A stretch of DNA of 64,000 nt from Ulva prolifera (Eukaryota > Chlorophyta > Ulvophyceae > Ulvales > Ulvaceae): assembly GCA_023078555.1 (NCBI GenBank), contig CM041197.1:2886501-2950500 (forward strand), in the 5' to 3' direction. The notes beneath the pieces are model-generated. The model saw only the letters and a list, made by a program, of their open reading frames with translations. It had not been told where the DNA came from and did no database searches. Within the stretch, counting starts at the first letter, position 1, and each line of letters opens with the position of its first letter. Position numbers and translations under genes: made by a program. Of this stretch, positions 1 through 48,118 are shown piece by piece.

Positions 1-3000
1 GTCGCGCGCGCACCTGGTCGGCCTTGTACTTCTCGGTGAGCTTCTCGAGGCCGAGGCCGGCGGTGTTGACAAACAGGCCGAGGTAGTCCGGCAGGCCTGT
101 CTCCTTCGGCGCGATGAAGTCCGACAGGCAGAAGTACCTGCACCCTGTGCGCCGTCAGCACCGCGGCCAGTCCACCACCCCCGCTGGAGAGTCGAGGGCA
201 CGCCCCATGCGGACGCTGCCCGTTCCATCGGGAGGCACAAGCCCATTAACTTGAGTCCGGGTCAACACGACACATGCTGCAACGTGTGCCGTTGACCAGC
301 CCAGGCCAACAGAAATCTATAGTTTAAGGATTACCTGTGCTGCCGCCGCTGATGCACGGCCCCACGCATGTACCCAGACTACCTCGTCACACGGTGCCAC
401 GACTCCACGCGACACAGGTCAGAGTGTCATTTGGATGCCTTTCCAACGTCAGGAAACCCACCCGGCACAGGAAACCCACCCGGCGCCCGCGGCAGTGTAG
501 CCTGAATAGATTACACAGCCATTGCATGGCAGAGCACCAACTCAGACGACCGGGCAATGCAGCCAGATAAAAAAAAAAAGATGCGGTGCCCGTGACAGTG
601 GAGGAGGCGTAGCGAGGGAGGGGGCGCACGGGTCGGACTTGTCCTCCTTCTCGCTCTGCTGCCGCAGGCCGTGGAACTTGCAGCGCACGGTCGTGCGGCT
701 CTCGTCCTCGTACACCTCGATGTCGTCGCCGACGGTGTTCGCGGGGTAGATCCCGACCATCGCGTTACACGTGACGTGCTTCTCGCGGATGAACTCCTGC
801 AGCATCTCCTGGGCCTCCGCAAACAGCTTCTTCGCCTCCTCGCCGACCTGCAGCCACGGCGGACGCGCGTGAGGATATGGGCATTTGAGCTCTCACACGC
901 ACAGAGACAGGGCTGTTTTGCAGCGGCACAGCACGGCACAGCACGGCGCGCTGCTCACGCCTGCAGTGACTCTCTACTGCCGCCACTGCGGCGGCCACCG
1001 CAACCGCGGCTGCAGGCGCAGCCGTTAGCCTTGCGATGCTGACATGTACACAGCCGCACGCAGGTACCCACGACGACTGTGAGAAAATCTGCACCCCTGG
1101 TCACAGCCGCAGGCTTTGTGAAGCAGGCAGCGGTCAGTGGCCACCACAACCGTGGCAGCAGCCCGCGCCATGGCCACGGCAGAGGGAGGCAGGGCGCACG
1201 GTGGCATCGTTGAAGATCTTGGGGTAGCCGCGGTTGGGGTAGCGGCCGCGCAGCTGCCAGACCTGGAAGAAGGGGTTCCAGTCGATGTAGTCGACGACGC
1301 TCTCGATCGGGATCTCCTTGAACACCTTGGTGCCGAGGATCTTGGGCACGTGCGGCTTGTTCGCGGGGTCCTTCCAGTCGATCTGCACCGCAGCGCGCCA
1401 TCAAATGGCGCACACGAAATACCAGAAACACGATATCCACAGCCGTTGAAGTCAACACCACAGCTGACACGTGCCTTGTGCAGTCGGTCCCCGCAACTGA
1501 GGACAGCTGGCAACCGCCACCGACAGACCCATCGCCGTCCATTCGGCATCTATATGGCCCAAATGAGTCATGGCGACAGCCTCAGCTCAGGATCAGCGCG
1601 CCCCCTGAGCTGACGGGAACATGTCTGTGCGCAGATCTCCTGACCCGCGCCCACGGACAAGCCGCAGCACAGGACACACAGCACGCGCGGAGATGCGAAG
1701 ACAAAGAAAACCACTGGCGGGGCGGCGGCAGCGACGCACCTTGAAGCCGCGGCTCTGCGCGACCGCGAGGTCGACGTACTTGCGGTCCTCGAGGCCGGCA
1801 TAGAACTCAGCGCGCAGCTCGTCGTACTCCTCCTTCACCTCCTCCGCGAAGTCGATCGCGTTCTGGGGGTCCATCAGCGCCTGGCAGACGGGCACGGAGC
1901 GCGAGGCGTCGAGGACGTAGATGACGGTGCCGTCGTACACGGGGTCGATCTTGACGGCGGTGTGCATCTTGGACGTCGTCGCGCCGCCGATCAGCAGCGG
2001 CAGCTGCACAACAAGGGTCCTCGTCTCGAGAGAGAGATATGAGTGCTGTGTCTGGGGTGACCTGCCCACACTTCCGTGACCGAAAGAAGTCATGGGAGCC
2101 CGCGGGACGCCAGAGCAGAGATGGCGCAGCATTGCAAGCAGGAGCGCAAATTCGGCGGCTGCCCAGCAGGCGCCAGGCGGGTCCGCTCGGGAGCGTATGG
2201 GCGCAAGCAGGCAAGAACGTGCCGAATGGCACGCAGGGCCACGATGTGTGTGCATGCACGGCCAGATAGCTACATCGCATGCATCCCTGAAGATCAGGGA
2301 GGCATGACATTCAGATTCTGAACACTACGGAGATTCGCGACACCAGTCAAGTCCTAGGGGGCAAACGTGGAGGGGGGGGGGGGGGGGGGGGCACCTTCAT
2401 GCCACGTTCCTGCATCCTCTTGCCAACGGTGACCATCTCATCGAGGGAAGGCGTGATGAGGCCGGACAGGCCGATCATGTCGGCCTTGTGCTCAACTGCG
2501 GCGTCGAGGATGGTCTCCCACGGGGTCATGACGCCCATATCGATGACCTTGAAGTTGTTGCAGCCGAGCACGACCGACACGATGTTCTTGCCAATGTCAT
2601 GCACGTCACCCTTGACCGTCGCGAGCACCATCACGCCTGCACACACGCCACCCCGCTCGCCCGGCGCACAGCCGCCGCTACACGCAGACGCATGGACCGG
2701 CATTTACAGACCCTCATGCTACTGCTTCTGGTGCCAATACCTGTGAGTGTGGGTCAATGCTCTGCCATGCAACAGTACGACCTCTGAAAATGTGCTCGTG
2801 TGCAGACACGCTTCCAGCGCCATCGCAAACTCAGGCGAATTCAGGGCATCGCAGGCCATAACTCACACGACACCAGAGCGCTGGTTTGTGGGCAGCACGA
2901 TGAAGGCGTCTGGGCTGTGAGCTACACATCGCACAGCGCGTCGCGCACCGCATGCCCGAGTGGCGCCGCGGCCATGCAAGGAGGGCGCACCAGCGTTGGA

Positions 3001-3142
3001 TTCCTCCGCCATGTCGCCGCCGGCGAGCCGCTTCTCCTCTTCGATGAAGGGGATGAGGTGGCCCACGGCCTTCTTCATGACGCGTGCCGACTTGATGACC
3101 TGGGGCAGGAACAGCTTCCCGGCGCCAAACATGTCGCCGACA

Positions 3143-3174
<32 letters not shown>

Positions 3175-6100
3175 GACCATCAGCGGCTTGGTCATCTCTG
3201 GCAGCACGCGTGCCTCCTCGGTGTCCTGGACACACAGCTTGTCTATTCAGCTCGCACGTCGAGCCAGTGCACAGCGGCGACCATGCGCTCCGCAGCAGCG
3301 TGCGTGGAATCGGCCTGGCGCTCCCTCACCAAGTGCCAGCCACATGGCAAGTACTTGAACACACGCATGCAGGGCAGCAAATCGGTCAACCCCGCTCCAG
3401 GGCAGCCCCCGCGAGAACTGTGCAGAGTGAACGTCGGCGTAAATGGCATCGCAATGCGGCCACATCAGGCATGCCAGCATGGGCAGCGCAAGAGCGGGCG
3501 CACCGCCACGATGTAGGTGTCGACCCCCTTGATGAGGGCATGCTCTATGCGCTTGCCGACGGCCAGGTCGCGCCACGAGGCCGCGCCACTGCCGGTCGAT
3601 GCCTTTGCGGCCACGCCCTTCTTGCGCACGGCGCACGGCTTGCTCTTGGGCTCGATCGTCGCGGCGTATGCGAGCAGGCGCTCTGTCGCGTTCTCGCATC
3701 GGTTGAGGAGCACGTCCTCGACGAACTCGAGCAGCGTCTTGTCCATCTTCTCGTACACATCCTCCTTGACCTAGAAAGCACCAGGGACTGCAAATCAGAA
3801 TGTAAGGGACATCTATGCAACGACACAATGGGCGAAATGTAAGGGATCAATAGAACAGGTATTGACAGGCTAGTCCGACCCACACCTTTCTGATGTGCAA
3901 CACGTGCACACAGGCACACGCTGTTCCACAAAGCACACAGCACGGAGTCACTTCTTGTGGCTGCAGCTCTCAGCACCGTCCACATGCTCCATGAAACGCA
4001 TCGCCGTCACAGCAGACGCACGATGCCACAAAACCTAATACGTCCAGAGCGGCAACAAGCCGCAGCCAGTCTGTGGTGTACTACCAAGAAAAGCATGGCG
4101 GCATTGGCGGCGCACCTGGGCGGCGTTGACGATGCCCATGTCCATGCCGACCTTGGAGCCCCAGTGGAGGAAGGCGGAGTGGAAGGCACGGCGCACGGGC
4201 TCGTTGCCGCGGAAGGAGAACGCGATGTTCGACACGCCGCCGCTGACCTTGCAGCCGGGGCAGACGTGCTTGAGCACGCGGGTGGCGCGGAAGAAGTCCA
4301 CCGCGTAGTTGTTGTGCTCCGGGAGGCCGGTGCCGACGGTGAGGATGTTGGGGTCGAACACGATGTCCTGGGGGTTGAAGCCGACCTCCTCGACGAGGAT
4401 GCGGTATGCGCGCTGGCACATGCTCACCTGCAGAGGCCACGCCCATGGATCAGCCCTGCTGATGATGGCTTGCCACATGGCTGCAGCTGCGGCCATCATC
4501 ACAATGATTGTCGAGTAGAATTGCAGGCCCTTAGGGACAGTGGGAAGCTGCAGTGGGCTACATTGTGCAAGCTACCGCAGCATGCGGCCACTGGCATTTT
4601 GGGTTGGGGTTCAGAGCTCACCTTCTCCTGCTCGGTGGCGGCCTGTCCCTTCTCGTCGAATGCCATGACCACGACCGCCGCTCCGTGGCGCTTCACAAGG
4701 CGGGCATGCGCCCTGAAGTTGTCCTCGCCCTCCTTCAGGGAGATGGAGTTGACGATGCACTTGCCCTGGGAGCACTTCAGGCCGGCCTCCACGATGTGGA
4801 ACTTGGAGGAGTCAATCATGAAGGGCACCCGGGAGATCTCGGGGTCGGAGACGAGGAGGTTGACAAAGCGGGTCATGGCGGGCACGCCATCGATGAGGCC
4901 GTCGTCCATATTGATGTCCAGCAAGTGGGCGCCCTGGTCCACCTGCACGCTCACCAGAGATTCGGAATACACATCTCAAGATATGCCAGTCGTCCAAGCA
5001 GCCCGGCCTGGCAGCGCAGAAGCAGAAGGGGGGGGGGGGGGGGGGGGGGGGAGGCGCATTGCTGTGTACACATGTGCAGCTGGAGGCACAGGCCACCCAT
5101 CAGGCAAAGCCATTGTACCTCTGAGAGACAGTGACAACGTTCCAGATGGGCGTGATGTGGCCATGTAAACCTGCTGGTGACCAACACGGGCAAGAACTAC
5201 ATGCGGCTGCAGCCCATCAGGCATGAAAGGTGATTCACAATCTCTTGACATGATCACCCGCCCGCAGCAGCAGCAGCAGAGAGCAGCTCTTCACAAGAGC
5301 AATGACTGCTGCCTTGGCCATCATCTCCGACACGTATGCAGAGTCCCCGGGGCTACGCCAGAAAGCACTGGACTCTGGAGAACAGGGCGCCACTGGACAT
5401 ACAGCAGCCCAGGTGGAACAAGATCACAGCACGCCCCACGCAACGGTTCGTGGCAACTGACTGTATTTTGTCTTTGGTTCCTGGTGGACCCAGCCCGACT
5501 CGCACGCAACGATCCGTTCACACATCTGTCGAGAGAACGTGCCGGATTCATACCTGCTTGAGGGCGATGGCGGAGGCCTTATCGTAGTCGCCGTCCACGA
5601 TCGCCTTCTTGTAGATGATGGACCCGGCCACATTGCAGCGCTCTCCGATGTAGAGGAAGGTGTCGCGCATGTTCTCTGCTGGCACGTAGTTCAGGGGCTC
5701 CAGGCCACTCAGGCGCATGATCTGATCCACTCCGTGCTTCTGCCGGAGTGGGTACTTGGCACTCTCCTCCTTCAGGGCCTTGATGTGCTCAAAGGAGGAG
5801 CCGCAGCAGCCACCAATCGCATTCACGAGCCCCATCTTGAAGAATTGCGACACCTCCTCAGCCATCTCGTGGCCCTTCTGGTCATACCCGCCCATGGCAT
5901 TGGGCAGGCCTGCGTTGGGGTACGCAAACACCCAGCAGTCCGACACACGGGACAGGTTCTCCATGTACGGGACCATATCCGAGGCACCGAGGGCGCAGTT
6001 GAGGCCAATGGCGAAGGGCTTCGAGTGGTTCATACTGTTCCAGAACGCCTCGTTCGTCTGGCCGGACAGCGTGCGGCCAGAGTTGTCGACGATGGTGCCG

Positions 6101-7372
6101 CTGACAAAGACAGGGATGCGCTTGCCCTTGTCCTCAAAGAACTTCTCAAGTGAGAACATCGCGGCCTTGGCGTTGAGCGTGTCGAAGATGGTCTCCACGA
6201 AGAACACGTCAGCACCACCGGCCCACAGGCCCTCGGCCTGCTCGTAGTATGCCTGAACGATCTCATCGTACGTAACGCGACGGAACGCCGGGTTCTCGAC
6301 GGAGGGACTGACGGACAGCGTCTTGTTGGTGGGGCCGATCGCGCCAGCGACAAACTTGGGCCCCTTCTCGGGGTACTTGGCCATGAACTCGGCCGTGCAC
6401 TTCTTGGCGAGCTCGGTGGCCGTCTTGTTGATGAAGAAGACCTCCTCGACGGTGTCGAGGCCGTAGTCGCCCATCGAGATGGTGGTACCTGCGTATGCCG
6501 GGCACACACTGAGCTGACCCACGTTCGCTGATCGTGCCTCAAAGGAGCGTCCAAATCGAACTACAGCCGGCTGCCAATGAAGTTGCGAGATGAAGAGCAG
6601 ACAAGCATAAGCTTGGACACCGGATAGGCCAGAGGCAGGTGCACTGAACAGCAGGAACAGAGTGCCGGGCTGGGTGACACACCGTTGAAGGTGTTGGTCT
6701 CAAGGATGTCAGCACCAGCCTCCAGGAAGCCGGTGTGGATCTCCGCAATGACATCTGGGCGGGTGATGCACAGGATGTCGTTGTTGCCCTTCATCTCGTG
6801 AGACGCATCCTGCAACACGAGTTTGTCATTGATACACAGAATGGCAATCATGTCAGCGGGCTCAAAATGCGGCGATGCAAGGAATAGACGATGCCAGTTC
6901 AGCTCTGGTGCCTCCTGACTTCATACACTGCCGTACATTAAGGACGTAGCATGCCAGCCAATCTGCGGCGTGGGCGGTGAAGCAGAGCAATGCCTCCCAC
7001 TCCACCTGCTAGCAGGTGGAGTGCATGGCCGGAGTCATTGTGATGTGTATGCATGACAAGTAATGCCATTCGTCCCAGCTGCTAGCAGTTCGTCACAGCT
7101 GAGAGTAGCGGTCGAGCACTGGAGGACATCAATTGTGCAGATGGAAGCACCTTGTAGCGCTCGCCACGGTAGTCCTCCTCCTCGAGCTTGTACTTCTGGA
7201 TGCTCGTGCCCATCGCACCGTCGATGATGCCCATGCGCTCGGAGAACAGCTTGTCGAGCTGCTCAAAAGCAATAGACTTCTCGATGGTGTCGACCCACGG
7301 CTTGTACTCTGGCACAGGCGGCAGCGGCTCATCAAAGCCGATGGGGTCAAATCCGGCAGGGGTTGGGTTGAC
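1..7372 (-). CDS. metH: MetH module C: homocysteine, pterin, cobalamin and AdoMet-activation domains (partial 3')
   Basis: Third block: exons 7372-7151, 6809-6683, 6488-5554, 4942-4622, 4427-4116, 3770-3504, 3225-2991, 2636-2395, 2003-1740, 1382-1200, 847-630 and 137-14, 1150 codons to the edge. It starts with [19 protein letters not shown] right after a TGTCTGCAG acceptor. No in-frame ATG lies in the open frame upstream, so this is an internal exon. Homocysteine zinc Cys are at relative 281, 344 and 345. The cap helices ([11 protein letters not shown]) and the cobalamin Rossmann domain follow, with [10 protein letters not shown], whose His (relative 819) is the lower axial cobalt ligand, then [13 protein letters not shown] and [16 protein letters not shown]. 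The AdoMet domain begins at [11 protein letters not shown], with FPANRVGDDIE-like [12 protein letters not shown] and [10 protein letters not shown]. The last visible exon ends at a CAG|GTGCGC donor. Roughly 150 further residues should lie left of the window. Confidence 0.95.
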
Positions 7373-7931
7373 CTGCAGACAAAACACCCGTAGCTCAGGA
7401 CACAGGTCGCTCCGGCTTCATCAGTTTAGTGGCAAGCAGTCATAATTCCAGCATGGGGGCCCAAAGCACATGATAGAGCGGGCGCCCTGGATGCCAGCCA
7501 GCCTGTGAGTTGGCAGCAGATGCAGGCTGTGGCAAGGCTGCTGACTCTCTGACACATCTCATTTCTTTCATATGAGCAGACAAATCATGTCAATCCAAAG
7601 GCAGCTTCATCGGGTGTCTCTCTTGACCTCCACCGGCTGCTTTCCACCTTCAGCAGCTGTGTGATCAAGGTGTGCCATCGTCACACGCACGGCCGCAGCT
7701 GTGGTCTTGCCAAAACTAGGCAAGTGCCTCCAGGATCTTACCAGGGCACATACGCCAACACACCAAGCCCCTGCCAGGTTCACGCAACCACACGGCGATT
7801 TGGACCGTACGAACAACACGGCGTATCAGAAAATCCAAGCGGCGCATACTTGCAACCCCACGATCTCTGTGACACATCAGCGGACGGAAGAGCAGGATGC
7901 GGCCAGAGCACACGTGCGCCGGCCCTGCCAT

Positions 7932-7978
<47 letters not shown>

Positions 7979-10900
7979 GACGCCCGCCTGGACGCTGCGC
8001 CGCAATCATTCCAAGGCCGCCGCGCACCTTGGCGGGGATGTCGGCCTCCGGCTCGCCGCCAAGCTTGCGCACAGCGCAGGGCTTGCTCTTCGGGTCGAGG
8101 GTCGCAGCGTACTCCAGCAGCCGCTCCGTCGCGTCGTCGCGGCGGTTCAGCAGCACGTCCTCGACGTACGTCAGCAGCTCCTTGTTTATCTCCTCGTACA
8201 CGTCCTCCTTGACCTGCACAGCGACACACATTACCACTGGTTTCTTCCTGCTCTGACGAATCCATGCACCAACTGCGGCGGACAAACAGCATAGTCCACT
8301 GGCAGCGGTGTGGCTGTGCAAATAGTGCACTGCGCATAGCACCTCCCACATGCAGCAAATGCTGCCTGAAACAGCCCATGAACACCGACTTGCGAGCGGA
8401 GCCGCTTACAATGCGGTTGAGGGCATGTCAGCGGGAGGCCAGACTGTACATGCCGGCTCCACAGCACAGAGCGCAGCCAGAAGCATGGCCATGTACGATA
8501 CATGGGCTAGCCTGCGGTGCCATGCCATGCGACACAGGACATCAGGTCTCACATACAGTCTGGACCAAAGGACATTGCCTGCATAAGTTGGCATGCGGAC
8601 TGTCCCTCAGTGACGGCCATAGCCCGTATCACATCGAACTCCACCGGACAGGCAGCCGGCCATGAGGGCGAGGCGGCTTCGGCGGCGCACCTGGGCGGCG
8701 TTGACGATGCCCATGTCCATGCCGACCTTGGAGCCCCAGTGGAGGAAGGCGGAGTGGAAGGCGCGGCGCACGGGCTCGTTGCCGCGGAAGGAGAACGCGA
8801 TGTTCGACACGCCGCCGCTGACCTTGCAGCCGGGGCAGACGTGCTTGAGCACGCGGGTGGCGCGGAAGAAGTCCACCGCGTAGTTGTTGTGCTCCGGGAG
8901 GCCGGTGCCGACGGTGAGGATGTTGGGGTCGAACACGATGTCCTGGGGGTTGAAGCCGACCTCCTCGACGAGGATGCGGTATGCGCGCTGGCACATGCTC
9001 ACCTGCAGAGGCCACGCCCATGGATCAGCCCTGGCAATGTTGTGTTCGTGCATATTGCGGCTGCCGCCATCGTGAAGCGGCGCTCTCTGGCCGTTACGCC
9101 TCAGCTGGTCAGATACAGTCGTAGTTCTGCAGCTAATTTCTTTTCTGTAGGTACTTTGCAAATACACAAATGCAGGCATGCTGTGTGTGAGAGTGTAGTT
9201 TCTTGATGTGATCATGCAACAAACGTCGAATGTAAGCGGGCATGTGTTTTGACTCTGTCCAGATCCGCGGCGCAGTCAGAAGTGACATTATCTCTGACAA
9301 ACAGGAAGTTGCCATGAAGCAATCCACAATCTCGTATGCTGCTCAGCTACTTCTGCAGCAGCGACACTGCAACAGCGAGACACGCTTCATCTCACAGCAT
9401 TCCACGCTTCAGAGCAGGCAGCCACAGGGAGACAAGGGGCAAACGCTACAAGCTGGTTCCGTACAGAGCCTGTCAGACACAATCGGCAGCTTTAGAACGG
9501 GTGCTCAGCCCCACATCAAGCACAATTCAGGCATGTGTACCGAGAACATGACGTGGATGCAACAGGCACAGCCTTGGGGTAAACAAGCTGTGGTGGGCTG
9601 CACTGTGCAATCAATGATGAGACTGCCCACATCTGGAGTCCGGGGTTGAGAACTCACCTTCTCCTGCGCGGTGGCGGCCTGTCCCTTCTCATCGAATGCC
9701 ATGACCACGACCGCAGCTCCGTGGCGCTTCACAAGGCGGGCATGAGCCCTGAAGTTGTCCTCGCCCTCCTTCAGGGAGATGGAGTTGACGATGCACTTGC
9801 CCTGGGAGCACTTCAGGCCGGCCTCCACGATGTGGAATTTGGAGGAGTCGATCATGAAGGGCACCCGGGAGATCTCGGGATCAGACACGAGGAGGTTGAC
9901 AAAGCGGGTCATGGCGGGCACGCCATCGATGAGGCCATCGTCCATGTTGATGTCCAGCAAGTGGGCGCCCTGGTCTACCTGCATGGTCCTCGAACGATGA
10001 TAGCATATCATTGATGTGTGATGTACACATGGACGGCTGAAGCCACAGGCCCGAACGTTGTGAAAGTGCAAGCACATCGGCCCAACGAAGGCCGGTTTTA
10101 AGCGGCGGACAGTGACCCACTGTAGTGGTTCGCACACGCAGGTTTCAGTAATGGGCAGCAAGGGCTATTTTCAAGTCGATGCAGACAGTAATGGGGGACA
10201 GGGTGGAGGCGTGCAGCCCGTACAAAAGGGGAAGGCATCACACCTGCTTCAGGGCGATGGCGGAGGCCTTATCGTAGTCGCCGTCCACGATCGCCTTCTT
10301 GTAGATGATGGACCCGGCCACATTGCAGCGCTCTCCGATGTAGAGGAAGGTGTCGCGCATGTTCTCTGCTGGCACGTAGTTCAGGGGCTCCAGGCCACTC
10401 AGGCGCATGATCTGATCCACTCCGTGCTTCTGCCGGAGTGGGTACTTGGCACTCTCCTCCTTCAGGGCCTTGATGTGCTCAAAGGAGGAGCCGCAGCAGC
10501 CACCAATCGCATTCACGAGCCCCATCTTGAAGAATTGCGACACCTCCTCAGCCATCTCGTGGCCCTTCTGGTCATACCCGCCCATGGCATTGGGCAGGCC
10601 TGCGTTGGGGTACGCAAACACCCAGCAGTCCGACACACGGGACAGGTTCTCCATGTACGGGACCATATCCGAGGCACCGAGGGCGCAGTTGAGGCCAATG
10701 GCGAAGGGCTTCGAGTGGCTCATACTGTTCCAGAACGCCTCGTTCGTCTGGCCGGACAGCGTGCGGCCAGAGTTGTCGACGATGGTGCCGCTGACAAAGA
10801 CAGGGATGCGCTTGCCCTTGTCCTCAAAGAACTTCTCAAGCGAGAACATCGCGGCCTTGGCGTTGAGCGTGTCGAAGATGGTCTCCACGAAGAACACGTC

Positions 10901-13900
10901 AGCACCACCGGCCCACAGGCCCTCGGCCTGCTCGTAGTATGCCTGCACGATCTCATCGTAGGTAACGCCACGGAACGCCGGGTTCTCGACGGAGGGACTG
11001 ACGGACAGCGTCTTGTTGGTGGGGCCGATCGCGCCAGCGACAAACTTGGGCCCCTTTTCGGGGTACTTGGCCATGAACTCGGCCGTGCACTTCTTGGCAA
11101 GCTCGGTGGCCGTCTTGTTGATAAAGAACACCTCCTCGACGGTGTCGAGGCCGTAGTCGCCCATCGAGATGGTGGTACCTGCATCAACCAGGCATATCTG
11201 TGCGCTGAGCTGACAGTAGTCGCCAGTGGCACACCAAGCGAAGCACAAAACGGCCACCTCCACCTGCCATACACGTACGACTCCGAAGTAAACAGCAGAG
11301 CTCCCAGAGAGATAAGGAAGCATGTGTAGTGGGACGGATCGAGTTGTGGAGGCAGAGGCTGCGCACCGTTGAAAGTGTTGGTCTCAAGGATGTCAGCTCC
11401 GGCCTCCAGGAAGCCCATGTGGATCTCTTCAATGACGTCTGGGCGGGTGATGCAAAGAATGTCGTTGTTGCCCTTCATCTCATGGGACGCGTCCTGCACC
11501 ACAACGCTGTGTTGACAAGAGTTGTCGCTGCTGTGTCTCACGTTGTCTTCAGCAATTTGTCAGAGATGACAGTACGCAAACAGGTGCACCATTCGCTGAT
11601 GCAATCTGGCCGAAAGCACTGCACCTGTGCCTTGTTGGTGCTCAAGACACGCATCCTGAGCAGGCGTCAAGCACTGGCAGTCAGACAGATGGCTGTTTGA
11701 GGCAGTCTGCAAGTGGGGAGCAGTCATCAAGTTAAGGGACTCACCTTGTAGCGCTCGCCACGGTAGTCCTCCTCTTCGAGCTTGTACTTCTGGATGCTCG
11801 TGCCCATCGCACCGTCGATGATGCCCATGCGTTCTGAGAATAGCTTGTCGAGCTGCTCAAATGCAATAGACTTCTCGATGGGGTCTACCCACTGCTTGTA
11901 CTCCGGCACAGGCGGCAGCGGCTCATCAAAGCCGATGGGGTCAAAGTCCGCCGGCCTGATGTTCACCTGCACGTCCATTTCCGCATCTTCAGCATGAGCG
12001 GTACTCGAGGAGCGGCATAGCCTCTCATTAGCCTCTGACCCTGCCTTGGTACACACAGGCTGACAATGGCACATGCGATTTGAAAAAAGATCAGACAGAT
12101 GCAATGCACACAGGCAGAGCATCCCTGCGAGCCAGCTGGAAACGCTTTTTATCAAATCATTTGTTTTCAAATGAGGCTGTGCATGCTTCAGCAATCATCA
12201 TGGCGGTAGTTCAGGGACCACGGCGGGAACCGAGCTCAACACATAGTACTCGAACTGTACAAGTCAGTAATTGCCTGGGGGCAAAGGTAGGCTGACACCT
12301 GACGCCAGAGAGCCGAAAAACGCTCAACAATCTGCTGACCCTGTGGACCGTGACAAATTGTGCCACAGGAATGCTCATGCTTGTTCACTACGTGCCTGTC
12401 CTGCGGAACGCAGACCGCCTCAAGCGCATTCAGCCTGACAGCCTCAACGAGCGCTTGCACATTCAGCCATCGGCGGCTCCTCCCAGAGAGATGCCATGAA
12501 GAAGCCACAGGCAGCTTCGCACGGGCAACCCTCCAGCTCGAAACACACACAAGTGCACAGCAGTGCCACCAGACCACGAGAGTACGAGGCGCACATAGCT
12601 GGCGTTCCTCTTCACGGCGCAGGGCTTGCTCTTCGGGTCAAGGGTGGAAGCATAGTCCAGGAGCCGCTCCGTCGCGTCCTCTCGGCGGTTCAGCAGCACG
12701 TCCTCAACATACGTCAGCAGCTCCTGGTCGATGTTCTCGTACACGTCCTCCTTCACCTGCACAGCACTCACGCAGCCTCTGAGTGACGTCATCCGCTTTA
12801 CCACAACTCAGCGCTCCACCAGGAGTGGCTATGATAGGCAAGTTATATGAGCTCAGCATTGCATGGCGTGCAGTCATTGGACACAAAGTCAATACATCAC
12901 AATACTCACACAGCCCACGGCTGTACCGCAGCCCACGGCTGTACCGCAGCACTGCCAGAATGCAGGGGCAAGCTGCACTGCAATGCAGCGTGCCCCTGCA
13001 GCACATTCTCATAGGTTTGCAGCATGTGGAATCGGTGCGATGGGCGTTGTGCAGTGGGTGTCGTCTCACGATGGAGGCTCCCTACGCCACATCGGGCACA
13101 AGCCAGTCTACGCTGGGCTACCAACAGAACAATCGGCGGCGCACCTGGGCGGCGTTGACGATGCCCATGTCCATGCCGGCCTTGGAGCCGTGGTGCAGGA
13201 AGGCAGAGTGGAAGGCCCGACGGATCGGCTCGTTGCCGCGGAATGAGAACGCGATGTTTGACACGCCGCCAGAGATCTTGCAACCGGGGCATCGGCGCTT
13301 GATCTCGCGGGTGGCGTTGAAGAAGTCCACCGCGTAGTTGTTGTGCTCTGGGAGGCCGGTGCCGACGGTGAGGATGTTGGGGTCGAACACGATGTCCTGG
13401 GGGTTGAAGTGCACCTGGTCCACAAGGATGCGGTACGCACGTTCGCACATGCTCACCTGCAGCACCGCCAGCACCTCACACAAGGGCCACAGCAGCTGAG
13501 GACAGCGGGCACGCCAGCATGAGCTCGTGGTTGCAGTGATAAATACTGCTGGCGTGAAGACCCAGGCACTAGTCTGTGCAAACAGCCTGCTGCACCGCCA
13601 TCCCGTTAAACACATAAGGCAGCCCAAAGGTGACGCAGCGGTAAAGTTGTCGCCCTGTGGGCTCGACAATACTGACAAAGCCAGTATTGTCGAGCCCACA
13701 GAGCGAGCAAGGAGATGCCGATTACTGCACCTCACGTCGCTCTCACAGCATCAACGCGAGAGACGACAGCAACGAGAGACCACCCTCACGGTAGGTCAAG
13801 GCAAATGCTGGGTTTGCCAGCAACATCCCACAAAGACCCGATGGACTATACACAAAGCAGAAGCCTTTGCCTGCGTGGCGACCAGCTGTTGCTATGAGCT

Positions 13901-16336
13901 GGTTTGTTAACTGGCTGTGCCATACAATGGCCCGGTATATTGTAATTTGAGTGTACACACAAAACAGAAGCAATGGCATGCGCTCGGCTGCAAAATCACG
14001 TGTACCGCTACGAAGCAAGCGCTGCAGCTGTGGCACAGTGACACATGGCTCCCCCTGACAGCAAGACGCAAGGCGTGATCAGCTCAGGATTGCACACCTT
14101 CTCGTCTTCAGTGGCTGCCTGTCCTTGCTCGTCAAAGGCCATCACGACCACCGCAGCTCCGTGGCGCTTCACAATGTTTGCATTCTTGATGAACGCCTCC
14201 TCACCCTCCTTCAGAGAGATCGAGTTGACGATGCATTTGCCCGGGCAGCACTTCAGGCCGGCCTCCACGATGTGGAACTTGGAGGAGTCGATCATGAAGG
14301 GCACGCCGGAGGTCTTCGCACCAGCCACGAGGAGGTTGATGAAGCGGGTCATGGCGGGAATGCCATCAATGAGGCCGTCGTCCATGTTGATGTCCAACAG
14401 GTGGGCGCCCTGCTCTACCTGCAGATGACGGGAGATAATTGCACACCTCAGCAGATGATCAGCATGGCATGCTGCATGTCGCTGACACAGCCTGCAGCAA
14501 CCTTAGGCAGCAGATGCTGTGATATGAATTCGAGTTGGTGTTGGAGGTAGGTCGCAGACACAAATAGCAGCAAGCACACCTGCTTCAGGGCGATTCCAGC
14601 AGCCTTCTCATAGTTGCCATCAACGATCGCCTTCTTGTAGATGGTGGAACCGGCCACGTTGCAGCGCTCTCCGATGTAGAGGTATGTGTCCCGCATATTC
14701 TGTGCAGGCACGTAGTTCAGGGGCTCACGACCACTGAGGCGCATGAGCGGCTCGACGCTGTGCAGCTTGCGAGGCTTGAAGCGCCCATCTTTGACCATCT
14801 TGCGCACTGCGGCGATGTGCTCAGGGCTTGTGCCACAGCAGCCGCCCAGAGCATTGATAAGGCCATCAATTACGAAGGGCTTGACCGTCTCAGCCATTTG
14901 TTCAGCCGTCTGCTCGTAACAGCCACATTCATTAGGCAGGCCGGCGCTCGGGTAGCAGAAGACGTAGCAATCAGCGGCCTCGGCAAGGCTCTTGAGGTGT
15001 GGCTGCATGTCAGCGGCGCCCAGGCCGCAGTTGAGGCCGACGGCGAACGGCTTGGCGTGGCTGACACAGTTCCAGAACGCCTCGGAGGTCTGACCGGACA
15101 ATGTACGGCCAGACTCGTCGATGAATGTGCCGGTAAGGAACACTGGGATGCGAACATTGCGGGCCTCGAAGAGGTCCTCCAGTGCATAGATAGCGGCCTT
15201 GGCATTCAGGGTGTCGAAGACGGTCTCAATCAGGAAGAGGTCGACGCCACCATCCAGCAGTGCCTCAGCCTGCTGATAGTAGGCCTGCACGCTCATGCAG
15301 CAATGAGTGTTGCTGTGCATGTGACACGCAATCAGACCAAATGCATCATCTGCATGTGCGCAAGTGTGCCGACACAGAGCACAGACGGTAGCTGCAGCAA
15401 AGCGTTGTCATGCTGAGCAGTGAGCTACGCCCGCACTGAACCGGTGCCACACGCACAAATGGACTGCGTGTCTGTACAGGAGACCTGTCTCGCCAGACTG
15501 CAGCCCGAGGTGCCCCATGCAGGCTAGATCCTGGCCAGCCACAGCTGCCCCCCGCAGCGAGCAGATGTATACTACCCCCACCGTCCCCACCCCAGGCGCT
15601 ACTTTTGCAATGAGCACAGCATTTTGAAGAATGTGAAGAATCAGGAACGTAGGCCTTCTGGCGCGGGAGGGCGCACCAGCTTCACCTCGTCATACGTGAT
15701 GCCTCGCTCGGCGGGATTGTCCTCCGACGGACTTACGGACAGTGTCTTGTTCGTCGGGCCGATTGCACCAGCAACAAACTTTCTTTCTCCTGGATGCTGC
15801 TTCATGTAGCGTTCTGTGCACTTCTTTGCCAGCTTTGCGGCTTCTGTGTTGATCAACTGCACCTCATCGACAGCCTCCAGATTATAGTCCGCCATGGAGA
15901 TGGTTGTGCTGTTAAATGTGTTCGTCTCGATGATATCGGCTCCGGCATTGAGGAACTCGTTGTGAATCTCCTCGACGACGTCTGGCCGTGTGAGAACCAG
16001 CACATCGTTGTTGCCCTTAAGCTCGTGCCCATGGTCCTTGTAACGCTCCCCACGGAAGTCTGCCTCTTCTAGCTCATATTTTTGGATGCTCGTGCCCATT
16101 GCGCCATCGATGTAGGCGATACGGCTCTCGAACAGCTCTACTAACTGCTTGAACGCTTCGGTGCACGTCGCATCGTCAAACTCAAGCGACCTGGCGTCAG
16201 ATCGCTTATTTTTCCGATTAGAAATAGCATTGTAAGCATAAGCAGCGGCTGCTCCTACAACTCCCACTGCAGCTGCCGCGCCTGCAACCCGCACTAGGGA
16301 GGACACGGCGCTGCCAGCGCCTTCGCGATTGCTCAT
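1..16336 (-). CDS. metH: Cobalamin-dependent methionine synthase with three tandem Hcy/pterin modules (3' end outside window)
   Basis: The product methylates homocysteine using 5-methyltetrahydrofolate and a cobalamin carrier. My model has 23 exons (minus strand): 16336-15677, 15284-14580, 14418-14098, 13456-13145, 12756-12595 | 11966-11745, 11493-11367, 11178-10244, 9978-9658, 9002-8691, 8213-8028 | 7372-7151, 6809-6683, 6488-5554, 4942-4622, 4427-4116, 3770-3504, 3225-2991, 2636-2395, 2003-1740, 1382-1200, 847-630, 137-14. Every junction is GT-AG and in phase, giving 7713 nt or 2571 codons before the window ends inside the AdoMet domain. Bars mark the module borders. The usual MetH has about 1200-1250 residues with one Hcy, one pterin, one cobalamin and one activation domain. 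Here the Hcy-pterin pair occurs three times and the rest once. Domain identity is certain. Whether one transcript spans everything is inferred from phase-0 linkers and the lack of an ATG before module C. Separate genes remain possible. Confidence 0.75.
2372..2391 (-). repeat. Poly-C tract at a 5' splice site (MetH intron)
   Basis: Twenty consecutive G on the plus strand form a C20 run on the MetH sense strand. It starts 3 nt into the intron after exon 2636-2395 (donor AAG|GTG followed by C-run). Confidence 0.95.
5028..5051 (-). repeat. Poly-C tract inside a MetH intron
   Basis: A 24-nt C run on the MetH sense strand lies in the intron between exons 6488-5554 and 4942-4622, about 85-110 nt upstream of the acceptor. 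Unlike the other tracts it is not at the donor. Confidence 0.95.
7933..7977. repeat. (CA)n microsatellite
   Basis: About 45 nt of uninterrupted CA dinucleotides lie in the intron joining MetH modules B and C (8027-7373), about 50 nt downstream of the module B donor in transcript orientation (GT repeat on the sense strand). Confidence 0.97.
8028..11978 (-). CDS. MetH module B: homocysteine and pterin domains only
   Basis: Second block: exons 11966-11745, 11493-11367, 11178-10244, 9978-9658, 9002-8691 and 8213-8028, 701 codons. It opens with [19 protein letters not shown], directly after a CAG acceptor. An in-frame ATG lies 12 nt upstream at 11978 (M-D-V-Q), so an independent start cannot be excluded, and the feature end includes it. 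The zinc cysteines are present (relative positions 281, 344, 345), as are all main pterin-domain motifs. It ends after a short linker with [12 protein letters not shown], spliced in phase 0. No cobalamin or activation domain lies between this block and module C. Exons 11178-10244 and 9002-8691 are nearly identical at DNA level to module C exons 6488-5554 and 4427-4116, while most intron sequence is unrelated. Confidence 0.92.
12595..16336 (-). CDS. MetH module A: membrane-anchor-like N-terminus plus homocysteine and pterin domains
   Basis: This is the first block of the methionine synthase locus: exons 16336-15677, 15284-14580, 14418-14098, 13456-13145 and 12756-12595, 720 codons. The start is the ATG at 16336. 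Residues 17-38 are an Ala/Val-rich hydrophobic stretch followed by the basic run NRKNKR, which MetH proteins normally lack. The homocysteine domain starts near IDGAMGTS (residue 76). The zinc ligands are present as GLNC (Cys306) and GGCCG (Cys369, Cys370), with the same 63-residue spacing as E. coli Cys247/310/311. The pterin domain (about 420-710) keeps [33 protein letters not shown] and [11 protein letters not shown]. It stops just after the pterin domain ([18 protein letters not shown]), where the cobalamin cap would begin. It is the most diverged of the three modules, and its exon 1 lacks two introns that B and C have. Confidence 0.93.
12911..12946. repeat. 18-bp unit duplicated in tandem
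   Basis: Two exact copies of an 18-bp unit (12911-12928 and 12929-12946) lie in the module A intron between exons 13456-13145 and 12756-12595. It looks like a simple replication-slippage duplication. Confidence 0.9.
13655..13701. repeat. Perfect 20-bp inverted repeat (hairpin) in a MetH intron
   Basis: Positions 13655-13674 and 13682-13701 are exact reverse complements around a 7-nt spacer. The element lies in the 641-nt intron between module A exons 14418-14098 and 13456-13145. A transcript would form a 20-bp stem with a 7-nt loop. No function is recognised. A miniature transposon footprint or a small-RNA hairpin are possible explanations. Confidence 0.9.
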
Positions 16337-17968
16337 GATTACAAAACAAAGTGTTCTGCCGAATCCGTCCCTGCTGTTTCTAGGCCAGCCGTGACCCCCT
16401 GCGACCGGGCAGCGCGATGCTTGCATGCCCTGCAATCGAGCCTGGGCGGTATGCACGCGGCCACCTGGTTGCCACGTCCAAATCTAAATGCGATCGAAAT
16501 TATCCGTGCCAGTCGTTTATCTGCCAGCTTCCACTCCATCCATAAGCATTCTTGATATGTAGAAATTTCGCAGTGCGCTGTTTGCGTTTGCGCACGTTGG
16601 TCTCCCTCGGGCGACGCCACGTGCAGCCAGCACTACAGAATCGGCACAAGCGGTGCATGCCTCAAGCAGCCAGCTGTCTAAGGGATCGGAACATTGTTTA
16701 TGTAAAAATTTTAGTGCCCATCAGTGTAGTCGCCGCCTCATCGCAGTGGCGTTGATCCGAGGATGGCACTGCGACAGGCACGTACACGCAGTCAATGCCT
16801 GTCCAACTGCACTATGGTATGCTACCATTGCGTGCCACGACAGCCTGTACCACCAAGCGCACCCCCTTGACTCCATCAAGCGCATCGATTGTGGATCACT
16901 GGCTCAGCAATTGTGAGGCTGGTACATGGACAACAGTGAGCTGCGCATGTAGCAGGCGTGCTTTGTTGCAGTGGACTGCTTGCACAGAGGCACCAACTTG
17001 CTCCCACCCATTATTCGCAATCATCTGCGGCCGTTGACACACGTGGCGTGGTCCACACTGCTCTGCCTATGCTCTCAGAGGGGCAGGCGGACTCACTGAG
17101 TCCAGCTCGAGTCACCTGACCGACCGCCCCGCCAATCCCAGCTGCCGCCACGATCACCAGCGGCATGCACTTGCAAGCAGCACCAACGAGGCCGAGTCAA
17201 GCAGTGTGAATTTCAATGAAATGGTATGAGAGAGCATTCAGCTGTGGGAGGTAGCCGTCTCGGGGGTGCGTTGTGGCTGCGTACATGTGCAGGCGGAGGC
17301 GACACCAAGGCCGTCACAAGCTGGGGGCTCCTGCGCTCCCTTACACACACAGACCGTACACAGCAGGCTGCATAACACACCACTGCTACATGATGACCTT
17401 CGACACGGGCTTGGGGTGGTAGAGGGGCCCCCGGTGGTGTCAAATCTTGGATACAGAAGCCGCGTCTTGTCTTTATTACATGGCAGCCAGACAATCGAGG
17501 CCCACATAGAAAACAGCTGTTGCCCGCGGTGGTACCTGCCTTGCTTGCATTGTCCTTGTCACATAGCAAACAGCTTTGACACACTAGGTAGGTGGTGCAG
17601 CTGCCGCTAGCTGAATGCGCATTCAGAGAACTGGGTGAAAAAGGGAGAATGGGCTGATGCTCAGATCTTCCCCTGCCCAGAGCTTGGCTGCCAGCAGAGC
17701 GTTTCCGCTGTTCTGTTTGCAAATTATCATGCCTGTCTCCAGCTCAAAAGCTGCAAATTGCAGAGCATACACGACACACATGCGGCCTGAACAAATGTGG
17801 CCCCCACAAAGACAGTTCACTTGTTTGCTTGAGCTAGCAGTAGTTCAAAGCAACTTGCCACACCCTGGTCATGCTCATGTGTGCTCATCAGGCAGCTAGC
17901 ATCACCACTGAATCATGTCTAGTGAAATCAGACTGGGCCAGCCGCCAGCCACCATGGTCAAGTAGACT

Positions 17969-30068: not shown

Positions 30069-32700
30069 GCGCAGTCGTGCACCGGATCGCCTCAACCCCA
30101 GTCAGTGCGACCGCAAAGGCTCGACAGTACACAGAGGCGCTCTACCTCGATAGCGCAAGCCGCCGCAGCTCCCGATGCGGCGGCAAATACTATTCAAGCT
30201 AGAGTAGCTATGGTTGGCGCCGGCAACATGGGCGGGGCGATGTTGAAGGGTTGGATGCGCGCTGGCATCCTCTCGCCTGAACAATCCGCGGCGTGCACCA
30301 GGAGCAGCACAAATGCATCTAGCTGGGAATCAGAGGGACTAGAGGTGCGTGCACCGTCCTTAATCGTGGCATCCAGCAAAGCAGCAAATGATCCGTGGGG
30401 GCGACTGGCCCAGTTGGGGCGTCGTTGATTCCGCAACGTTCCTACGAACACTGCATCAGCCAACCACAGACCCCGATGTTGTCATAGCTTAATGGCGCAG
30501 CTACGCCTTGATTATCGAGTCCAGCCTTGATGCTGTCCCCATGGCATTCGCACACAGGCCCCCTCTGGCAAGTAGCACTTTCCTTGCGGCGTGACCCAGC
30601 GACTTCAAGCTTTGTGAATCATATCCAGGTATGCGCATGATGACCCGGCATCGTATGAAATACCGATCGTTCTGCACAAAATGGAACGCAAATTTCATGG
30701 GTTATGTGCGTCCCTGGTGGCCAACGATCCCACTGGCCAACAGAGGTCTGCTCCACAGTCACACACGTTTCTTAGTCCAGCATCCCCTGCCTGCCAGATT
30801 TTCAACATCGCTCGGCTGTGTCCATAATCAGGCGGGAGCATGCGGATCTGTATTTGCCATGCCACTTTCGCTTAGTCATCCTTTTCCGCTTTGACTTCAT
30901 GTGCACACCACACCTGTTCTCAGGGTCAGCGCCCATGCTGAAGCCCGCCTGGCACAGATCCGTCCCCGACATATACCTATCTCCGGGGTGTTGCTTAATT
31001 GCCGGAGGCACCCAAAGTCCACATACTTGGCACACTGCAAATGATGTGCACTTTTGTTGTGCACACCAGCTGTTGGCAGTCTTTGTCCTTCTACACACAG
31101 AGCTGTGGTGCCTTGCACGCCCTAGATGTGCCTTGTTCCCACCATCAAGTCAGTATGCTTTCGCATGGTCAAGTCCTGTACCTACCGCCATGCCTATCCC
31201 GAGATCCATCTCTAGATAGGTCCTGTGCAGTGCGACCGCACAGATTGATACATGTATGCCTGTGCATGACTGATGCGGTCCACCCGCCTCGCCCCCATTG
31301 TCCTTAAAACACACCTCACCTGCTGCTGTTGAAGCGCTGCCGGCTCCTCGCACGATCGCCTGCTGCATGATCCGGTGCTCCGCCTCGCAATCGCTCGAGC
31401 CCTCGTAATATGCCCCCCTCGCCGTGTGCAGGTCTTCGGCGACGTGCTCGACGACGCCGAGGCCGCGCAGATCTGCGAGTTCTCCGACATCATCTTCCTC
31501 GGCGTCAAGCCCGCCTACCTCGGGCCCGTCCTCGCGTCCCTCTCCCCCCACATCACCCCCAAGCACACACTCGTCTCGATCGCCGCCGGCTGGACGGTCG
31601 CGCAGCTCGAGGCCGCACTGCCGGACGGCGCAGCGGTGATGCGGGTCATGCCCAACACGCCGATCCTCGTCGGCCAGGGCGCCTCGGTGTACTGCCTCGG
31701 GCGGCACGCGGGCGACGCGGACCGCCGCGTTGTGCACGACCTGCTCGCAGCATGTGGGGTGGCGCTGGAGGTGTCGGAGGACCACATCGACGCGGTCGTC
31801 GGGGTCAGCGGCTCCGGCCCGGCATACATGTTCCAGGTGTGTGGCCATGCACCCCCTGCGCCTGAATGCGCTGGCTTTCCTGCTGCAAGAACTTGCCTCA
31901 ATGTTGCGTGAGAGAGCGCCGATTCGGTTGATGCTTGAGCGCTGTGCGGTCACACGGCGCTGTCGGCCTCTGTCTGGCGCTGTGGCCGCCCCGTATGTGG
32001 TGGTGAACAGGCCTGGCGTAAGGGATGCTCAGCCGGACCTGGCGAGCCCTAACGCAGACCCCTCATAATACAGCCCGGTCCGGTGCGAGGGCCGCTGCTG
32101 CTGGGGCTGCTGTGGGGCTGCCGGCCATCACTCCGGTTCCGCTGCAATGTGCATCCGGTGCTGACCCCACGCCGATGTGTGCCAGCAGCTTCACCGGAAT
32201 GGCCGGCCCGTTTTTAGCGCTCCAGTCGCCGCAGCTCATCTTCGCCGATCATAGCCCCTATCAAACTTCATCTTGGGGAATTTATCCATAGTCTTGTGTA
32301 CATCGCCTGCGCAACTGTTCACCTGCATGCATGTATTCATATGCCCAGCGCAGACAGGGACCGGCGGGTGCTTGCGGTGCAGGTGCTCGAGGCGATGGCG
32401 GACGGCGGCGTGCGCGCGGGGCTGCCCCGGCAGCAGGCGCTGCTCCTCGCGGCGCAGACAATGAAGGGCGCCGCGGAGATGGTGCTCTCCGGCGACGGCG
32501 GCGGCGGCGGCGCGCTGTCGCACCCCGGCGTGCTCAAGGACCAGGTCACATCCCCCGGGGGCACCACGATCACAGCGCTGTCTGTGCTGGAGGAGGGCGG
32601 CGTGCGCTCCGCGTTCATCCGCGCCGTCGACGCGGCGTCGCAGAAGTCGCGCAGCATGGCCGCGGCGCGGGACGACGCCGCAAAGGGCGGCGCGGCGTAG
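30069..32700 (+). CDS. P5CR: Pyrroline-5-carboxylate reductase, probably plastid- or mitochondrion-targeted
   Basis: Catalyses the last step of proline synthesis, NAD(P)H-dependent reduction of pyrroline-5-carboxylate. Exons are 30069-30344, 31432-31836 and 32383-32700, 331 residues before the stop. The 5' end is not fixed: 30069 follows a CTCAG acceptor and the frame has no ATG before the catalytic domain. Residues 1-45 are rich in Ser, Arg, Gln and Ala with no acidic cluster, as in transit peptides. The Rossmann fold starts with VAMVGAGNMGGAML. The middle exon holds IIFLGVKP, MRVMPNTP and VVGVSGSGPAYMF. The last exon holds VLEAMADGGVRAGLPRQQA and the signature DQVTSPGGTTI. A Gly-rich insertion (GDGGGGGAL) lengthens the loop before HPGVLKDQ. 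Introns are 1087 and 546 nt. Confidence 0.93.
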
Positions 32701-47100: not shown

Positions 47101-48118
47101 AAGTCCCTCGACGTCACGACGAGCAGCCAGTGCGCGATGGCGATCGACAACCTCGCGACGTGGGTCCACCAGAACCTCATCAAGGTCGACGAGCTCCACC
47201 AAGTGCACCCCGCCGCCCAGGTGCCGCCCCTGCTTCTCCCCTCTCTGGCCTGTGCGTTGACCTGCAAACAAGCACTCGCCAACACACAGGTGCCCTTTGC
47301 TGTACTCGGTGTGTCCACGTGGGCTTCAGGAGATGACGTATGACAGCTACTGGCTGACAAAGATGGGGATGTGTGGGAGCATGAGAGGTCTGTGTGTCAC
47401 AGCACAGGAGGGGTGCCACTGACGTGGTGCACTTGAATCCTGTGGGTGAACAAGGACTGCCGTTCGCTGCACGGTGACTTCAACTGTTCACCAACACTGC
47501 TGAATCCGCTGCAGGCTGCTCTGCCCCGTGGCTGTTCACAATGACACAAAACAGGCATCAGCCACTGAGCATGTGCCAATCTGTGGTCAATCCACCCCGA
47601 CACAGCCCAGTCCTTCGTGTCTGCGTAGCTCAGTTCACAGCCGCATCATTCGAGTGCTGCGGATGTGCACGCGTAAATACATGTAGCCATTTCCGTAGGG
47701 ATGTTGACAACTCCGGTGTGGAGCTGACTGCCTGCAGCGGGGAGCGCACCGGCCGCTGGTTGTCTGAGGCACCCCGAGATGCCTGCAGGTGTTTGCCCAG
47801 CACGTCAACCAGAGCCCGAATCTGCTGCCCGAGCTGCTGCAGACGCTGCTCAAGATCGCGCTCTTCCAAGAGTGCTTCAACCAGTGGAGCCTATCGCGGC
47901 CGATGCTGTCCCTGATCCTGCTCAACCAGCAGAATCTGAGCGAGATTCAGGCCCAGCTGCTCGCTGCACAGCCGGCTGGCAAGCAGGAGTTTGTGTCAGA
48001 GTGTCTGGAGAAGCTCATGAAGGACGTCGACGACTCGCTCGGCTCCAAGAACCGGGATCGTTTCACGCAGAACCTCACCAACGTGAGGCAAGAGTTCAAG
48101 AACAAGTTCTGGTCGTAA
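39192..48118 (+). CDS. XPO7: Exportin-7 (RanBP16-type karyopherin)
   Basis: A Ran-dependent nuclear export receptor shuttling through nuclear pores. The 17-exon model is 39192-39269, 39342-39419, 39507-39592, 39674-39724, 39974-40163, 40332-40484, 41026-41378, 41819-41927, 42204-42377, 42937-43125, 43385-43615, 44021-44146, 44759-45165, 45573-45798, 46232-46420, 46966-47220 and 47789-48118, all in phase, 1074 residues (human XPO7 has 1087). It is collinear with the family: [16 protein letters not shown] at the start (importin-beta N-terminal repeat), [123 protein letters not shown] and [16 protein letters not shown] near the end. HEAT repeats fill the length. A TGTAA, the polyadenylation signal favoured by many chlorophytes, lies about 100 nt past the stop at 48219. 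Convergent with CLEC16A. Confidence 0.97.
44150..44176 (+). repeat. Poly-C tract at a 5' splice site (exportin-7 intron)
   Basis: A run of 27 C on the sense strand starts 3 nt into the intron after exon 44021-44146 (AAG|GTG then C-run). Confidence 0.95.
46121..46182 (-). repeat. Dispersed short repeat, copy 4 (exportin-7 intron)
   Basis: On the minus strand it reads aattacctgagccgtatcc, gaggac, gatgacaactcc and gaattggcggg. It ends before the ggaccacatatg block. It is antisense to exportin-7, in the intron before exon 46232-46420. Confidence 0.75.
47672..47717 (+). repeat. Dispersed short repeat, copy 5 (partial, exportin-7 intron)
   Basis: Only the centre is recognisable: gtagccatttcc, a short spacer, then gatgttgacaactcc. 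It is in the sense orientation in the intron before exon 47789-48118. Confidence 0.6.

Follow-up and report, generated by a model that had tools for sequence, protein, structure and literature searches.

Does the methionine synthase locus at the edge of this stretch of Ulva prolifera DNA encode one enzyme with three catalytic heads, or several neighboring genes? The window (the whole stretch of 64,000 nucleotides analyzed here) begins within a cobalamin-dependent methionine synthase (MetH) gene on the minus strand. The gene carries three consecutive modules, A, B and C, of about 700 residues each. Each module comprises a homocysteine S-methyltransferase barrel (Hcy) and a pterin-binding barrel (Fol). 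We consider it probable (about 0.6) that the locus is a single gene for one MetH, in which three Hcy and Fol heads would precede one cap, one cobalamin and one activation domain. Methionine synthase is the route by which B12 supply limits many algae. If the proposed architecture is true, three heads per cobalamin would offer a natural experiment on whether a single swinging B12 domain can serve several active sites, and on whether algae multiply the B12-free half of the enzyme and thereby spare the vitamin.

Gene model and window context

An exon-by-exon rebuild of the gene on the minus strand (16336..14) yielded 23 exons with GT-AG introns throughout (Table 1). All 22 junctions are in phase, as an earlier note on this DNA had proposed for its 23 exons, and 2,571 codons are read without a stop. 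The rebuild also reproduced the phase-0 module borders of that note and their coordinates (A5 ending at 12595 and B1 starting at 11966, B6 ending at 8028 and C1 starting at 7372). Window base 1 falls inside the activation domain and the gene runs on beyond it. About 150 C-terminal residues are expected outside the window, because module C matches the human chain only to residue 1117 of 1265. The 20 within-module introns span 161-655 nt, with a mean of 366 nt. The spacers between modules had been described as ordinary in length for introns of this gene; their sizes of 628 nt (A-B) and 655 nt (B-C) stand, yet both lie at the upper end of the within-module range.

Table 1. Exons and module-border spacers of the methionine synthase gene (positions in the window)
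Feature	Position	Strand	Content
Exon A1	15677..16336	-	Start ATG and hydrophobic N-terminal stretch, then Hcy domain (first half); PF02574 E 2.9e-34
Exon A2	14580..15284	-	Remaining Hcy domain and start of pterin domain
Exon A3	14098..14418	-	Pterin domain
Exon A4	13145..13456	-	Pterin domain
Exon A5	12595..12756	-	End of pterin unit; border donor TAT/gtgcgc, 3.6 bits
Spacer A-B	11967..12594	-	628 nt, taken as intron; in-frame ATG at 11978 close to B1
Exon B1	11745..11966	-	Proline-rich linker and Hcy start; border acceptor gtgcag/GTG, 10.8 bits
Exon B2	11367..11493	-	Hcy domain
Exon B3	10244..11178	-	Hcy domain, running into pterin domain; dS against C3 0.04
Exon B4	9658..9978	-	Pterin domain
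Exon B5	8691..9002	-	Pterin domain; dS 0.014 to C5
Exon B6	8028..8213	-	End of pterin unit; border donor AAG/gtgcgc, 13.3 bits
Spacer B-C	7373..8027	-	655 nt, taken as intron; 45-nt CA/GT run at 7933-7977
Exon C1	7151..7372	-	Linker and Hcy start; border acceptor ctgcag/GTC, 14.7 bits
Exon C2	6683..6809	-	Hcy domain
Exon C3	5554..6488	-	Hcy domain and start of pterin domain
Exon C4	4622..4942	-	Pterin domain
Exon C5	4116..4427	-	Pterin domain
Exon C6	3504..3770	-	End of pterin unit, on into linker and cap domain (unlike A5 and B6)
Exon C7	2991..3225	-	Cap domain (B12-binding_2)
Exon C8	2395..2636	-	Cobalamin domain with GDVHDIG
Exon C9	1740..2003	-	Cobalamin domain and linker
Exon C10	1200..1382	-	Activation domain
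Exon C11	630..847	-	Activation domain
Exon C12	14..137	-	Activation domain; gene goes on past window base 1

Two compositional features accompany the exon structure. Of the 22 introns (1-16336), 10 have AG/GT at the donor as well as at the acceptor, and such a duplicated-AGGT look is discussed in connection with intron gain. Codon third-position GC generally climbs along each module and falls at the start of the next one, going from 0.62 to 0.87-0.89 in A, from 0.76-0.80 to 0.94-0.99 in B and from 0.79-0.81 to 0.98 in C. Elsewhere in the 64-kb window, no further MetH copies were found by tblastn with a head and the C-terminal part, as only one of 25 matches fell outside 1-16400 (E 0.57, noise). 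Among nine neighboring coding pieces, six have a Pfam match (FPL, HCO3_cotransp twice, F420_oxidored, TFIIS_M and Coatomer_E) and three have none.

Domain content and integrity of the heads

Pfam domains S-methyl_trans (PF02574) and Pterin_bind (PF00809) are present in all three modules. The domains B12-binding_2 (PF02607), B12-binding (PF02310) and Met_synt_B12 (PF02965) are found in only one, as part of C, with the activation domain PF02965 (E 1.7e-50) clipped by the window edge. A and B both end at the pterin/cap boundary and have no Pfam match to a cap or cobalamin domain. Pfam thus agrees with the earlier observation that the Hcy and pterin units occur thrice and that only the last copy continues into cap, cobalamin and AdoMet domains. 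The canonical one-copy order Hcy-Fol-Cap-Cob-Act is found in C alone; Hcy and Fol would be present three times if the locus produces one transcript. GDVHDIG in C8 fits DxHxxG, the motif of the cobalamin-binding domain. Protein identity over aligned codons is 69.5% between A and B, 68.2% between A and C and 95.6% between B and C, hence the tandem repetition of heads is not due to chance.

The three heads appear intact. Cysteines C306, C369 and C370 (module A numbering), assigned as zinc ligands, are invariant across the heads, and so are the columns of the folate-site motifs. In module C, the cysteines of GLNC and GGCC align with the human GLNC and GGCC, which we take to be the three zinc-ligand cysteines of the Hcy barrel. 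No frameshift or stop interrupts any of the three modules. The dN/dS ratios are 0.28 (A-B), 0.27 (A-C) and 0.18 (B-C), with the values for A being rough in its first half (exons 1-2), because synonymous divergence from B and C is near saturation there. The modules are under purifying selection. With the zinc cysteines and folate motifs kept and dN/dS at 0.18-0.28, no head looks like a pseudogene.

The N-terminus of A sets this module apart. At the start of exon A1 (16336-16200), a hydrophobic run of Ala, Val and Gly precedes a basic NRKNKR, and the best 19-residue Kyte-Doolittle mean is 1.86 (residues 14-32). An additional in-frame ATG lies upstream of the A1 start codon. To our knowledge, a hydrophobic N-terminus of this kind is unusual for a methionine synthase. 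Flanked by basic residues, it may serve as a signal anchor, a membrane tether or a targeting sequence.

Splice signals at the module borders

Splice sites were scored with a position weight matrix built from the 20 within-module introns, with other sites of the gene scored leave-one-out and a background of 1,103 GT and 1,000 AG drawn from this strand of the same 17.5 kb. The B-C border has the strongest sites of the locus. The B6 donor scores above every other donor of the gene and the C1 acceptor above every other acceptor, with no equal among the background GT and AG, respectively. At the A-B border, the B1 acceptor is also equaled by none of the 1,000 background AG. The A5 donor is poor, as 80 of the 1,103 background GT score as high. 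On its intron side, A5 reads gtgcgc, the commonest donor type of the gene (11/22), and acceptors of the tgcag type occur in the gene. An alternative phase-0 donor in the open frame of A, at 12522, scores 6.0 bits. Of the coding stretches scored, the best one on B6 runs 12 nt beyond the donor, and the best one on C1 starts 21 nt past the acceptor. The Hcy and pterin units are in frame across both borders, with plausible splice sites. We infer splicing from A5 to B1 and from B6 to C1, with strong support at B-C and moderate support at A-B. A fusion of B with C appears likely on these signals, and the complete A-B-C fusion is favored with less assurance.

Signals for separate transcripts were also present in part. 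Module C has no in-frame ATG of its own upstream of C1 before a stop is reached. B could start at 11978, because an in-frame ATG (MDVQ) lies there, 12 nt ahead of exon B1. The B-C spacer contains a candidate first exon for C, with an ATG at 7931 (MAGPAH) and a donor of 9.0 bits at 7913; comparable candidates of at least 7 bits occur in 1 of 20 ordinary introns. According to the available parts of PMC3439250, TGTAA is the main polyadenylation signal in Chlamydomonas, with 12 of 26 recorded poly-A tails having the motif within 22 nt. TGTAA is absent from the minus strand of both spacers, which is weak evidence because the motif is expected only about once per 2 kb (31 occurrences on the minus strand of the 64 kb). 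Downstream of five reading frames in the window, the motif follows within 100, 338 and 252 nt of the stops at 48118, 56925 and 61925, and at 851 and 2,301 nt after those at 32700 and 48479. Together with intron-rich genes, gtgcgc donors and tgcag acceptors, the motif after three of the five stops would suit a eukaryotic alga, perhaps a green one. The TGTAA evidence is too weak to decide the border question.

History of the modules

The intron positions of B and C are all held in common. A is without the first two, has one of its own and has the last three in common with the other modules. Synonymous divergence varies strongly along the modules. Between B and C, dS for exons 1-6 is 0.32, 0.52, 0.04, 0.17, 0.014 and 0.68. 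The pairs B5/C5 (9002-8691, 4427-4116) and B3/C3 (11178-10244, 6488-5554) have the lowest values, with the other four pairs at 0.17-0.68. Between A and B, dS exceeds 1.1 in the parts matching B1-B3 and is 0.30-0.44 in those matching B4-B6; between A and C, it is 1.1 at exon 6.

None of six pairs of homologous introns, of A with B or of A with C, has a match. Three of the five homologous B-C pairs have short matches, the best being an identical 31 nt preceding exon 5. Gene conversion between B and C is indicated because their exons are 82-99% identical in DNA (99.2% across one 362-nt stretch) and their introns hardly align. We suggest that conversion acted exon by exon within an old tandem array, and that it extended into the last 31 nt of the intron preceding exon 5.

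One gene or several

A single polypeptide was one of two readings put forward earlier. The layout and the phase-0 borders behind it hold, and fusion remains the best-supported reading, firmly at B-C and moderately at A-B. The weaker border leaves some room for two genes, with A a separate, membrane-anchored Hcy and Fol half-enzyme and B-C a two-headed MetH starting from the ATG at 11978. The weak A5 donor, the ATG adjoining B1, the different intron layout and far greater divergence of A, and the doubled unit as the state reported in a diatom would all fit such an arrangement. However, a start at 11978 would leave unused a B1 acceptor that outscores 1,000 of 1,000 background AG and whose position is homologous to that of the C1 acceptor. 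The 3' end of A and the promoter of B would both be squeezed into 628 nt, and A alone is without a match to a cobalamin domain. We regard two genes as rather unlikely.

Three tandem genes would comprise two stand-alone Hcy and Fol proteins and an ordinary MetH encoded by C, whose own first exon, a short one, would lie in the B-C spacer. The candidate exon at 7931-7914 could fill that role, and short intergenic space does exist in the window, as the convergent stops at 48118 and 48479 are 360 nt apart. The half-enzymes would then use free methylcobalamin or the cobalamin domain of C in trans. This arrangement is improbable, as the B6 donor, which scores highest in the locus, must be unused or lead to an unseen 3'-terminal exon; the lack of TGTAA in either spacer counts weakly in the same direction. 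An assembly artefact or a decaying tandem duplicate is very improbable. Near identity of B and C exons in places (99.2% over 362 nt) might hint at it, but a decaying duplicate is at odds with modules free of frameshifts and stops and with dN/dS well under 1. An assembly duplicate was rejected given that the introns of A, B and C differ; A, B and C are not one locus assembled twice, because homologous introns hardly align.

Under the preferred single-gene reading, the encoded enzyme would probably have about 2,700 residues. Its cobalamin domain, on a flexible linker, would take the methyl group from methyl-folate in the Fol barrel and give it to homocysteine in the Hcy barrel. Methyl transfer would occur chiefly with head C, as in any MetH. 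Head B would plausibly be reachable across a linker of about 60 residues, and head A would lie farther away (A-B linker about 50). The linkers before B and C, consisting of the end of the pterin unit and then about 35 residues with a 10-residue stretch, might let the extra heads hang off as additional rigid N-halves. With extra heads, each scarce B12 could serve more catalytic sites, conversion among homologous exons could keep the heads similar, and the protein may be membrane-tethered through the N-terminus of A. The extra heads might perform chemistry with the single cobalamin and thereby spare B12. Higher turnover or substrate channelling, as suggested earlier, may be what they provide; they could equally be a reservoir, or be in part redundant, with gene conversion holding them similar. 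The combined picture of a single, possibly membrane-tethered and B12-sparing enzyme with three intact heads, one B12, one activation domain and exon-limited conversion is tentative, at slightly under even odds.

Alternative transcripts were considered as well. Skipping of B (A5 to C1) stays in phase and is possible. Mutually exclusive use of the heads with a common C-terminal part is unlikely; splicing from A5 or B6 to C7 is in phase, but the product would be missing the beginning of the cap domain, encoded in C6.

Methionine synthase loci elsewhere

The surveyed loci and genomes are from prokaryotes, with one viral contig. Among 81 fetched loci (the best 80 of 593 genome-contig matches and the viral contig), none carries another head in the same orientation. 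One locus (L038) has an Hcy-like match, 30% identical, on the opposite strand, and in three (L023, L048 and L056) the C-terminal part is absent from a sequence that stops just after the match. In the phylum of L002 (a Saprospiraceae MAG), 173 of 198 genomes matched at E <= 1e-100, and no open frame longer than 1,387 aa was found among the matches listed. Several genomes among these matches have a split MetH, with the Hcy unit matching an open frame of its own, about 335-352 aa long; in G036 and G052, the frame from Fol onward lies directly beside the Hcy frame. The split bacterial enzymes resemble the Ulva gene in that domains shuffle as modules, but they are split rather than multiplied.

The viral contig IMGVR_UViG_3300020442_000005 (273 kb; L001:8570-14858) encodes a full single-headed MetH of 1,178 aa with all five Pfam domains, adjoined by S-adenosylmethionine synthetase and S-adenosylhomocysteine hydrolase. 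The same 22 kb contain a PALP-family (cysteine-synthase-like) enzyme and a UvdE nuclease. The contig thus has the enzymes of the activated-methyl cycle on what is probably a large virus, with the viral status as given by the source collection. A second scan of the viral collection recovered the same contig again.

Comparison with known systems

Module C and the C-terminal domains correspond to human MTR (PDB 9ssp, 4ccz), with five domains in the same order and an alignment of query 36-1149 to chain residues 19-1117 (1299 bits). The Ulva gene differs by two more Hcy and Fol heads in front, by a proline-rich linker of about 35 residues preceding heads B and C, and by the hydrophobic N-terminus of A. 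The available parts of PMC13376404 name Cys260 and Cys323 of human MTR. They describe independent modules, with an N-half of two rigidly linked barrels that a flexible linker connects with the cap-cobalamin-activation half, and with a cobalamin domain that has to travel about 50 A between the Fol and Hcy domains.

The closest parallel to the Ulva heads is the METH gene of the diatom Phaeodactylum tricornutum (Phatr2 23399), compared here by text description only. As described in the available parts of PMC4523565, an annotated intron of 2,280 nt is in frame with both exons, is covered by ESTs and codes for one MetH and one pterin-binding domain, which probably arose by duplication. The authors state that the two MetH domains must be verified. 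Both genes would thus contain an extra in-frame Hcy and pterin unit inside one MetH gene, with two heads in the diatom and three in Ulva. A doubled head is not shown in the available parts of PMC6557843, PMC11439496, PMC12614181 and PMC13376404, and we found no report of a tripled-head MetH in the open-licence literature. The earlier view that the layout was undescribed therefore fails for doubling and holds for tripling within the open-licence literature searched. Because the diatom doubling is already in print, head multiplication as a kind is not unknown; what would be new here is the presence of three heads. Together with the unverified diatom report (PMC4523565, in its available parts), the Ulva locus suggests that head multiplication is not a single accident.
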